In this document: one piece after another, positions 10,247 through 53,163 of the stretch
How positions within the stretch are numbered: position 1 is the first letter of the stretch
Layout: every line of letters begins with the position of its first letter
Source of the DNA: Halichondria panicea
Taxonomy: Eukaryota; Porifera; Demospongiae; Suberitida; Halichondriidae
DNA length: 64,000 bases
Reading direction: 5' to 3'
NCBI RefSeq assembly: GCF_963675165.1
Contig: NC_087379.1
Location: forward strand, 4,171,442 to 4,235,441
Position numbers and translations under genes: made by a program
Notes under the pieces: model-generated
Seen by the model: the letters and a program-made list of their open reading frames with translations, nothing else
The model's database searches: none
Told to the model about the DNA's origin: nothing

Positions 10247-10335
10247 TAGCCTCGACCCCAGGCCGATCTGTCTCCAATTGAAGAGGAGGTGACCTAGCGT
10301 TCAATTGGAGACAGATCGGCCTGGGGTCGAGGCTA
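10247..10335. mobile_element. Palindromic TAGCCTCGA-type element, 89 bp
   Basis: Near-perfect arms start TAGCCTCGACCCCAGGCCG and extend about 38 bases, leaving a loop of about 13 bases at 10285-10297. It belongs to the same end family as the elements at 34786, 35888 and 51985. No 9-base flanking duplication is visible here, in contrast to those copies. Confidence 0.7.
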
Positions 10336-33063: not shown

Positions 33064-33970
33064 CTTTGTAATTTATGAATTGTTCCATGTGTTTCTTTAA
33101 TAATTACCTCTATTTAAGGCGCCACATAAAAATAGAGCTTATGCAGTATAATAATGATCAAGTAGTGTTACGCACTCTTCTGAAAAGGCTGCACTGGCAT
33201 TCCAAGTAAGAACAAAGTATTATTTTGAAAATCCACGAATCAAAAGAGGAACATGACTACTAGGCCTACTTGCACTAGCCTCCTTTGCAGCCTCTCCTTT
33301 TTCTGTTCTTTGTCACAGAAGAGAAATATTGGAGGAACAAAGAAAGAAAGAAGGAAGCAACTAAGAAAAGGAGAGCCTGCCTTGCTAAGTCGCGTGATCC
33401 CCTACTGACGTAGACAAATTTTAACGAGCGTGGGCGAGAGAAAACCTCAATAACTGCATGTCCTCCCACACAGTACTTGGAGCGCATTTACCAGGAACAT
33501 AATCTGTTATGAACAGTACAGTACAGTGCAGTAGAGTCAGCCTTTGTGAGACCTTTAGTCAGTAGAGGAAGTATGAAAGACTAGAGTAGAGTAGACTATA
33601 CTGCTGTAATAATTATATCTACTAATCAAGTGGGTCTGTTCGAACGTTCTGAACTCGGGAAAAAAAACTGAGCTAAATTTAGATATTTAGTCTCTTTAGT
33701 CTTTACTAGGTAAGCCCTCGTCTACGATGTTGATTCTGGCTTACTATCTACGATGCTAACAGCTTTTATTTAGAGTTTGCAATGCGTGCGCGTAGGCCTA
33801 GGCATGCTGTAGCCTCTAGCTCTGCACAGGCTCTCCTTTTTCTGTTCTTTATCACAATCGTTCAATAAGATAAAATACTGTATTAATTAGAGGAATAAAG
33901 AAAGAAATAGACGTAGAGTTAGGAAAAAGCTGTATCGGGAAGTCGCGTGAGGGTAGAAGGGTGGTAGAAG

Positions 33971-34426
33971 CAAGAGTGCATAAGAAGAGAAGAGTGTCGA
34001 ACTACTGATACTTCTACACAAACACTGTGCACAAAGTAACATGACTCGCACGTGATAAAGTATTGTAAATTTACTAGTAATCTCCTAGTAAATGTTAACC
34101 GTGACGTTTTTAGGGGTGTGGTAATCGAACAATTCTAGCTAGTTGTTCCCGTTCAACGTTCAGAGCTTGTGGAGCTGCTCACTGCACACTGATAGGAGAC
34201 GATCTCTTCACAAAAATCATCTAAATAGAGACAATAGTCGAGTTGATCCTCTTCACTTGCACTGTTTACTCACTATTAACAACTTTTGTGCGTTGCGTAA
34301 TTATGCGCAAACGTCATCAATTGCGAGTTGCTCACGTGCAATTGACAGGATGTCACGTTACTTTGTGCACAGTGTTTGTGTAGAAGTATCAGTAGTTCGA
34401 CACTCTTCTCTTCTTATGCACTCTTG
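33971..34426. mobile_element. Third-layer palindromic element, 7-bp duplication
   Basis: Arms start CAAGAGTGCATAAG and extend about 70 bases, including GAACTACTGATACTTCTACA and ACTGTGCACAAAGTAAC. GTAGAAG flanks both sides (33964-33970 and 34427-34433). The copy near 409-437 shows the empty site. The centre holds no recognisable gene. Confidence 0.85.
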
Positions 34427-34785
34427 GTAGAAGGGTGAAAATGAGCGTGGGCATACTGAGCTAGAGATGTTGGACTGCCCACGCAGAGGTCTACGACTAA
34501 TAAAACTTTGCCTGCAGCAAGCTGGACATGAACTTGGAACTGGAAGTTTGCAAGCACTATAGCTAGCTATACCTTAGGCTTAGCTAGATTATCTACTAGT
34601 CTAGATTGTGTGTTTAGATTCTATCAGACTATTACCTTTTCTTGTGTCTTTCTACATGCTATAGTAGAATAGCTTAGTCATCATTATCATATAGCAGGTA
34701 GCTACTGCCACCAGAGCTGGCCACGCTGGTTCTCTGATCTGACTTGCAGCACAGCTTGGTGGTTGTCTCAGTGCTAGTGCAGTAC

Positions 34786-35869
34786 TAGCCTCGATCCCAG
34801 GCCGAGTTTTCGCTTTTATAACGGTTAGGCGAACAACTGGGCCTGGTACTAGTTGTCTGCGCATGCGTCAAATTTTCATTGTATATTTGTGGTCGGCAAA
34901 AATATTTAATAAATCAATAATAGAAATTTGTACACAGAAAATGCACAGAGTGAGTACACAAAAGATGCACATAGGGAGCTGCTTCACAAAGGCCTGGGGA
35001 GTTGCCAGTTGTGCTGCAGCACAATTACAGTGACCCAGGGCAACTTCAGGATGATTGAATGCCTTCAAATTACGTTTCAAAAAGATTTAGCAGGCTGCTG
35101 GACTTCTCTGATTCTAGGCCCCAACTCGTAACTCATTACTTGAGATTCTCTTGATGTCTCTGAGCTACCCAGCAACGCTCGAATGAGCAGGTCATACTCC
35201 AGTCCTGTGTCTGTGAGTATAGGACAATATTAAAAGAAACCAAAGACGGTTAAACCCTTACCTCAAACTGTCCAGTCTTGTCCGTTAGTATAGCCAAGAG
35301 GAGCACTGTTGGGATAGCTGGATATTAGCCATTGCTCCTGTACAGAGAAGTAGACATTTTAAATACGTGTAGATCTATACATATTAAATTTCTCGGTTAT
35401 AGTGTCATTGTCGACGAGCTGATGATGGCAGCACCAAGTTCTCTAGCTCACACTCTTCACTTGATCCACCATATTAATGATGAAACTATAGTCTACCTAC
35501 ATTCTTGCCAAACATGAACAAGACTTGATAGCATAGCCTAGCCGGCCATAGGGCCCACACAAAAATATCTGACCTTAACAAGCTTGACAAAGCTTTATAC
35601 CTCTTCCCTTGTTGTTCAGTCTTCAGAATAAGCTTCAGAGAAGAGAGAAGCTTCAGCTAAGAGCCATTCCAATCGATTCCAATAATGATTAAACGGGAAC
35701 TGACTTCTAGTACACGATAGTACACGAATATAAATGTCACGAAAGTGAACGAGAATATCCATTCGTCAGAATCTGACGAACGACTGACGCATGCGCAGAC
35801 AACTAGTACCAGGCCCAGTTGTTTGCCTAACCGTTATAAAAGCGAAAACTCGGCCTGGGATCGAGGCTA
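34786..35869. mobile_element. Third-layer TAGCCTCGATCCC element, 1084 bp, 9-bp duplication
   Basis: Arms TAGCCTCGATCCCAGGCCGA and the inverse extend about 80 bases, through CTTTTATAACGGTTAGGC and GTCTGCGCATGCGTC. GTGCAGTAC flanks both sides (34777-34785 and 35870-35878). The interior has no recognisable ORF. Confidence 0.85.
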
Positions 35870-35887
35870 GTGCAGTACAGTACAGTC

Positions 35888-35933
35888 TAGCCTCGATTCC
35901 AGGCCGCTTGAACAAGGCCTGGAATCGAGGCTA
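35888..35933. mobile_element. 46-bp palindromic micro-element, 9-bp duplication
   Basis: TAGCCTCGATTCCAGGCCG faces its inverse across 8 bases, and AGTACAGTC occurs on both sides (35879-35887 and 35934-35942). It is essentially two terminal repeats without a body, ten bases from the right duplication of the 1084-base relative. Confidence 0.85.
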
Positions 35934-36482
35934 AGTACAGTCTTACTCTGAATGCGTGGGAGAATACCTTACGTCACGATTGTGGGCTACATATCGCCCA
36001 CGTTCATAAAAATCCTTGTGGATCACGCGATTTCCCAAACCAGGCCTTACTTTTTCTTAACTGTACGCCCATTTCTTTCTTTGCTGCCTCACTATGTCTT
36101 TCTTATGTTTATGGATGAACAGTGACAACAGCAAGAAAAAGTAAGGCCTGGGAACGAGGCTAGGCATGCTGTAGCTTTTTGCTCTGTCAGGCTCCGCCCA
36201 GCTAGTGATTGCCCACGTTCATTTTCACTCGTCTACCACTCGTCTACCGTCACGCGACTTAGCAAGGCAGGCTCTCCTTTTTCTTAGTCTCTTCCTTCTT
36301 TCTTTCTTTGTTCCTCCAATTAGTCCCGTATTTTATCTTATTGAACTATGACAAAGAGAACAGAAAAATACTTGCACTTGATTGTACAGTATAATTATAG
36401 CCTGCACACGTACTAATACTTCTCTTGCGCATGCGCACCGAGGCATAGACCATAGTGATTCAGGCATTGTCGACATGTCAAA

Positions 36483-51900: not shown

Positions 51901-53163
51901 TGGCCATACAACTGTAGCTATACATTATGTTCTAATTTATCAGACAACCAAAATGTTTGAACAGCCATGCAGCTGCATGTAAGCTAGCCTCGATCCCAGC
52001 CCCTCTCACTAGTGGGCCTGGTAACCACCGTTTGAGCGTGGGGTGGATTCAATAGTAAATTTGTTAGTAAAACTCTTTGTCACCCTTTTGGTCACCCACG
52101 TGGTTGATTAAACTATTAGAGAGAAATCACTATCACAACTCTAGGCTCATACAGGAGCACTGATCTTACAGAGATGGCATCAAACAAGTGTCTGGAAGCA
52201 AGTAGACTTGCCAGAGCCGGTAGGTAGTGACAGAAAACGCCCACCACTCTATCATAGTAATAAAAAAGACAAAACCTGACTTTTCAACACTGGAAAGAGC
52301 TTGAGCAAGAGCAGAAGAGAAGTAGAAGCCATCACAACAAAACTAGTCACTAGTCTAGGCCATAAATGTTGTAAGTATCTGTTATTAAAACTGCTATGAT
52401 TTGTGTAATGACATCAATGTAAAATATACAATAATAATTATTATACTGACTAATTTACTAAGATATCTCGATCCCGAAGATTCTTGGGGAAATTGACGCA
52501 TGCGCAGACAGTGTATACCAGGCCGTCTTTCTCAATTCAGAGCGGCCTGGAATCGAGGCTACATGTAAGCTAGCTAAGTTTAATAGCACAGAATAGTTGC
52601 AATATAAGTAGCTAAGCTAGCTAACTGCATTGACTCTTGCTAGCTATAAACTGCTTGTAATCAATGTACATATCCAAGCGATCCACTATGATTAGAATAA
52701 CCAGCCAGTATACGTAATTATACGGTAGTATAAAGTACATGTACTAAAATATAAACCTGTGCATTGAGGATCATGGAGTAGAGGGTGTGTTGATCTCTGA
52801 GTGTGCTGACATCAGCAGTAATGAGTCCCTGTAGGAACGTTCCACTGTCTGACCCACACACCCTCACCAGCGACCGATGAGACAGCTGTAGACTCTTGGC
52901 TCCGCCAGTACTAGCATGTGCGGTCTGCATTGAGGAAAAGTAAATCATTTCATACTCACAGCCCGCAGTACCATACCACGTGACTACAGTCCCTTCTTAT
53001 TTAATACAGTCTCTATAAGATTAAGATTACCTATCAAATTCATTGTGAGCACTATGATAATTATGGCTGTACGTACTTGTACAAACGTGCAGCATGGATT
53101 GTGTCTGACTCTCCTGAAAGGGTTTACGACTACAAACTGAAACATTCGCTTGGAAATATTCAT
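48965..53163 (-). CDS. IBA57: IBA57-type iron-sulfur cluster assembly factor
   Basis: A folate-binding YgfZ/GcvT-family protein that helps build mitochondrial [4Fe-4S] clusters with ISCA1/ISCA2. Nine exons join in frame: 53163-53077, 52924-52757, 51669-51547, 51239-51130, 51068-50989, 50614-50507, 50287-50185, 49320-49204, 49064-48965 (331 residues). Exon 1 gives an Arg/Lys-rich, acid-free N-terminus suited to mitochondrial import. [11 protein letters not shown] and LLECDSR are conserved. The family signature [17 protein letters not shown] (Cys near 232) is intact, and the protein ends with NWWPSDLIL like the vertebrate DWWP end. An AATAAA lies at the stop codon on the minus strand. The start faces the DUF4442 gene 127 bases away. 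Introns carry two 9-base-duplication elements. Confidence 0.93.
49378..50103. mobile_element. Pogo/Tigger-like element in IBA57 intron, with nested insert
   Basis: Left end TAGAACCTCGATTATCCGG and right end GGATAATCGAGGTTCTACTG are inverse; the right end is followed by TA. Near 50030-50060, GATTATCCGGCATATTCAGT shows another internal end copy. The CAGAGGAGG element sits inside. Confidence 0.65.
49678..49985. mobile_element. CAGAGGAGG element nested in IBA57 intron, 9-bp duplication
   Basis: Ends CAGAGGAGGTACGACATCC and GGATGTCGTACCTCCTTTG are inverse, and ATGTGGCAC flanks both sides (49669-49677 and 49986-49994). 308 bases, non-coding. Related to 16168-16301 and to the half copy at 10130-10227. 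Confidence 0.85.
51985..52561. mobile_element. TAGCCTCGATCCC element in IBA57 intron, 9-bp duplication
   Basis: The left end starts TAGCCTCGATCCCAG and the right end finishes CCTGGAATCGAGGCTA. CATGTAAGC lies on both sides (51976-51984 and 52562-52570). 577 bases, with a CGCATGCGCAGACA tract shared with 34786-35869. Confidence 0.85.

Follow-up and report, generated by a model that had tools for sequence, protein, structure and literature searches.

The question raised by this locus is what a 46-bp palindrome with the same nine bases on either side of it represents, and, if it is an insertion, whether it landed at that size or was reduced to it after a longer element had arrived.

Results

The element lies at positions 35888..35933 of the window (the whole 64,000-nucleotide stretch of Halichondria panicea DNA analysed) and reads TAGCCTCGATTCCAGGCC, GCTTGAACAA, GGCCTGGAATCGAGGCTA, that is, a left terminal inverted repeat of 18 bp (35888..35905, + strand) and a right one of equal length (35916..35933, - strand), pairing at 18/18 positions around a 10-nt spacer (35906..35915) that has the same sequence as the inner portion of T1 ends, T1 being a ~740-bp MITE subfamily. 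The original prediction had envisaged 19-base ends joined by an 8-base loop; because base 19 is unpaired, the perfect arms are instead 18 bp and the spacer 10 nt. The perfect 9-base duplication that it described is present, with AGTACAGTC at 35879..35887 and again at 35934..35942 (9/9). As single-stranded DNA, the 46-mer is predicted to form one stem of -22.2 kcal/mol, and 0 shuffles equal it. Our genome search (131 Mb, 39 contigs) returned the exact 46-mer at 1 site only, and a near-copy with the same junction, one base different and an 8-bp TSD at L060.

This palindrome is nested, together with a second element, in a copy of an older host MITE with related ends and the TSD GGCATGCTG (33810..36162), whose paralogues L002 and L039 are without both. 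The second element is a 1084-bp MITE (34786..35869) that adjoins the target site of the 46-mer and has the same terminal 18 bp, bar one T/C difference; flank comparison placed its GTGCAGTAC duplicates at 34777..34785 and 35870..35878, the latter abutting AGTACAGTC. Positions 34777-35942 are hence occupied by two independent insertions on directly adjacent 9-bp targets, GTGCAGTAC and then AGTACAGTC, with 0 bases between. A third insertion in the host copy (33971-34426; 456 bp, ~70-bp inverted ends starting CAAGAGTGCATAAG, flank repeat GTAGAAG, 7 bp) belongs to a different family.

Empty sites were sought among paralogous copies within this one genome, where the uninterrupted target GTGCAGTAC-AGTACAGTC-TTACTC is found exactly at 50 other sites and with one mismatch at 10 more; L002, which contains the same host repeat, carries it with one base different. 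Removing both insertions from the window, each with one duplicate, restores ...GTGCAGTACAGTACAGTCTTACTC..., in close agreement with L002 apart from small differences. The 50 exact read-throughs prove that the 46-mer is a true insertion with a real 9-bp target duplication, and the earlier reading of the palindrome as a mobile-element insertion is borne out by them and by L002. A match of the flanks by chance, or as part of local AGTAC-rich sequence with no insertion, might have been entertained given how repetitive this sequence is (GTGCAGTACAGTACAGTC), but the 50 uninterrupted paralogues, the near identity of the excised window to L002 and the generality of TSDs across the family leave it virtually no probability, and we regard it as ruled out by the paralogous empty sites.

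The end of the 46-mer is shared by many other elements. Allowing <=3 mismatches, the 19-mer end occurs at 11 places in the window, compared to 0 in 100 shuffles, and its exact form at 645+591 places in the genome, compared to 0 for the reversed control. Elements of 516, 577, 606 and 1084 bp have this end in common and TSDs of 9/9. They are part of a large clan with terminal TAGCCTCGATTCCAGGCC in common and 9-bp target duplications. Within the window, the 577-bp member at 51985-52561 has the perfect duplication CATGTAAGC, and a palindromic member of 89 bp at 10247-10335, with TAGCCTCGACCCCAGGCCG ends and long inner arms, is without a flanking duplication.

Short full palindromes of 36-51 bp were located at 65 genomic places (control 0), a count that takes in a few sites where the inner motif pair alone matches; the 46-mer is not alone, and dozens of similar end-only insertions are found in this genome. 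The original prediction had proposed to score the 9-base flanks of such palindromes, and had named a majority of copies without duplication as the outcome that would contradict it. We read 52 two-ended palindromes of 36-60 bp, mainly from contigs C1-C11, a set that was partly hand-picked (nine from earlier searches) and that includes some copies lying in duplicated DNA. Since 32/52 carry a TSD of 8-9 bp (27 exact 9/9, 3 with one mismatch, 2 with 8 bp, and 20 with none), the majority goes the other way. Exact 9/9 matches were seen in 27/52 palindromes but in only 7/1820 comparisons at shifted offsets.

Among the palindromes read, some are identical at separate locations. One 59-mer occupies 5 independent, unrelated sites, with the TSDs TCATGCTTT, ATCATAGT (8/9), CTCACGAAC/CTCACTAAC, GCTACTACC and GGGGGGTGC; one 60-mer has 2 sites (AAGAAGCAC, AGATACTAC) in addition to two close variants; and one 45-mer has 3 (TAATTGACT, CACACTGGG, GGTTCTTGT). 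Elements of 36 bp, which are free of any spacer, also have TSDs, namely ATTGTATCT (L114), TGTTGCACC (L119) and GCAACTTCC (L117, L118).

The relation of the small forms to longer elements can be read in T1, the subfamily to which the 46-mer belongs, whose full-length copies (~740 bp, some ~1 kb; with TSDs) have TAGCCTCGATTCCAGGCCGCTTGAACAAGGCGGCCTGGTAT at both ends. The 46-mer matches the first 31 bp of one T1 end joined to the final 18 bp of the opposite end, with GGC (3 bases) common to both, and each small form, likewise, reads as a fusion, at microhomology, of the outermost ~18-34 bp from either end of a longer MITE. T1 palindromes of 60, 61, 62, 65 and 66 bp have differing junctions; the TSD is 9/9 in the 60, 61, 62 and 65 bp forms, and the duplicate is displaced by two bases in the 66 bp form. 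The sizes of two-ended T1 copies, counted by hand with a search word that misses mismatched copies, are bimodal, with 18 long copies (cores 697-1071 bp), 7 palindromes of 60-66 bp (cores 38-44 bp) and 0 intermediates. Microhomology of >=2 bases is present at 10/19 distinct junctions from two subfamilies, in a list that we assembled ourselves, where 3.4 would be expected if endpoints were uniform between 18 and 36 bp (p ~0.001).

A source of transposase was sought in the genome, where 31 MULE transposase domains and 24 Merlin / IS1595 transposase-domain matches were identified. At 30/31 MULE loci, read to 1.5 kb each side, no flanking pair of clan ends was seen. Of the Merlin matches, L128 contains a 1531-bp element with the IS1595 domain (828-2358), its own ends GGTTAGGCTGACTA and the 8-bp flank repeat ATTAAGTC, and around L129 our search for an enclosing pair turned up just a clan end of the 1084-bp family. 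At the loci read, neither type of gene was linked to a pair of clan ends, and none was shown to be the partner. Two ends lying 5.6 kb apart on C1 were also considered as an autonomous element and rejected, as their flanks mismatch.

Discussion

Comparison with known systems places the 46-mer closest to the MITEs, having terminal inverted repeats pairing at 18/18, a 9/9 TSD and paralogous empty sites. MITEs and the clan have in common that they are non-autonomous, with terminal inverted repeats, a TSD of fixed length, hundreds of related ends and deletion derivatives; the end-only forms differ in having no body and a total length of 36-66 bp, down to two 18-bp ends without spacer. The 9-bp duplication of the clan falls within the range of MULEs (including the Phantom and Rehavkus groups), whose TSDs are 8-11 bp (PMC6446971), but no MULE gene was found between clan ends, which begin with TAG, and because no MULE locus that we read was bracketed by clan ends within 1.5 kb, we did not file the 46-mer as a MULE. 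For Merlin/IS1595, the one copy found with ends (L128) has other ends and an 8-bp duplication rather than the 9 bp of the clan. Foldback-type elements have long ends, whereas those of the end-only forms are ~18-33 bp with almost nothing between them. Like the clan palindromes, such elements (for example Tm1 Mutator/Foldback, PMC3169594) are dominated by inverted repeats. Our literature search with the end sequence gave no relevant match, and searches on the smallest MITEs nothing useful.

Judging from its sequence, it is well supported that the 46-mer derives by collapse from a non-autonomous DNA transposon (MITE), of which only the ends remain. For this particular copy we lean towards collapse after landing. 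A longer T1 element would have inserted at the site, generating the 9-bp duplication; a later break in it, probably through excision by the transposase, would have been followed by gap repair that went no further than the first ~20-35 bases of either end, and the two new strands may then have paired at a short microhomology, closing the gap. A near-perfect palindrome is the product to be expected, because each end is an inverted copy of the other. When gap repair after excision is aborted, large deletions are expected whose breakpoints lie close to the ends (PMC8277862), and the bimodal sizes and terminal bias of T1 fit this process. Among the sites read, mainly in contigs C1-C11, we found none where a long parent and a collapsed form share one target duplication. 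Two candidates for such a pair were rejected. At target GGGGGGTGC, a 285-bp form (L003) and 59-bp forms (L002, L006) are no proof of collapse, because the longer one is a 59-mer whose central TA has received another MITE (CG-TA-CCGTATAGCGCG...CTATACGG-TA-TTTT). L010, which has the same target duplication as the 36-bp element in L009 and L011, is uninformative as an uncollapsed parent because it is rearranged both within the element and in the flank. The 59-bp palindrome of L003 (1501-1785) was itself hit by a TA-duplicating MITE that added 226 bp.

The main alternative, in line with the suggestion of the original prediction that a transposase can mobilise two joined ends, is that the small palindromes are mobile, that the terminal 18-30 bp of each end are all that the transposase requires, and that the 46-bp unit landed as such, which we consider a serious possibility, if a somewhat less probable one. 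That identical 59-, 60- and 45-mers recur at several independent sites, each with its own TSD, speaks for some small forms being mobile, and the L060 46-mer, with the same junction elsewhere, points in the same direction. The number of times a form recurs, moreover, does not track the length of its microhomology: the commonest forms have 2-4 bases only and the junctions of 8-9 bases are single, so that copying of small forms fits better than repeated deletion. Nonetheless, recurrent deletion at the same microhomology could also yield identical products, and the same 46 bp, duplication and empty paralogues are what collapse at the site would leave. Small forms, furthermore, are known at no more than about seven sites each, compared to hundreds for long clan members, and most junction types are single-site, therefore the small forms do not multiply freely. 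The persistence length of DNA is ~150 bp, so that bringing both ends of a 46-bp element, which is far shorter, into one complex would be costly. That at least some small forms move is not exclusive with collapse, and we consider it somewhat less likely than not; for the 59/60-mers, which are symmetrical and recur at more sites, movement at this size and collapse appear about equally likely. Tentatively, then, a eukaryotic transposase might mobilise a bare two-end unit of 46-60 bp, and possibly the spacer-free one of 36 bp, in which case one palindromic binding site would be a transposon in itself, spreading in low copy number.

Collapse at the site could also have taken a course that dispenses with the transposase at that stage: the paired ends of a long element could fold into a hairpin or cruciform, which nucleases would then trim and rejoin. 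The strong folding of the ends and the several T1 palindromes with both breakpoints equally far (30-34 bp) from the ends, or nearly so in the 59-mer (30/31 bp), are consistent with such processing. The 46-mer (31+18) and the 44-49-mers (26+19) are asymmetrical, however, and fillers and microhomology resemble ordinary end joining, all of which makes this route unlikely in our opinion. Collapse after landing by interrupted gap repair is the account that we prefer for the 46-mer.

Each outcome would have its own implications. If the small palindromes move, the minimal cut-and-paste substrate in a eukaryote would be two ends only, far below the usual size of a MITE, and this would constrain how transposon ends come together. 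If they collapsed after landing, they would provide a countable record of excision-gap repair, with products lying within the first ~35 bp and joined by microhomology. In either case, palindromic insertions of 36-66 bp with a 9-bp duplication likely escape standard repeat annotation.

Some end-only elements appear in unusual settings. The spacer-free 36-bp element at target GCAACTTCC in L009, L011, L117 and L118 is a passenger in several copies of apparently one repeat, and a MULE domain is present as well in two of its carriers, L009 and L011. At L014 (222-341), an end-only element of 57 bp and another of 36 bp are arranged in tandem as GCAACTTCC-57-GCAACTTCC-36-GCAACTTCC, with one 9-bp sequence in common, as if one target had been used twice.
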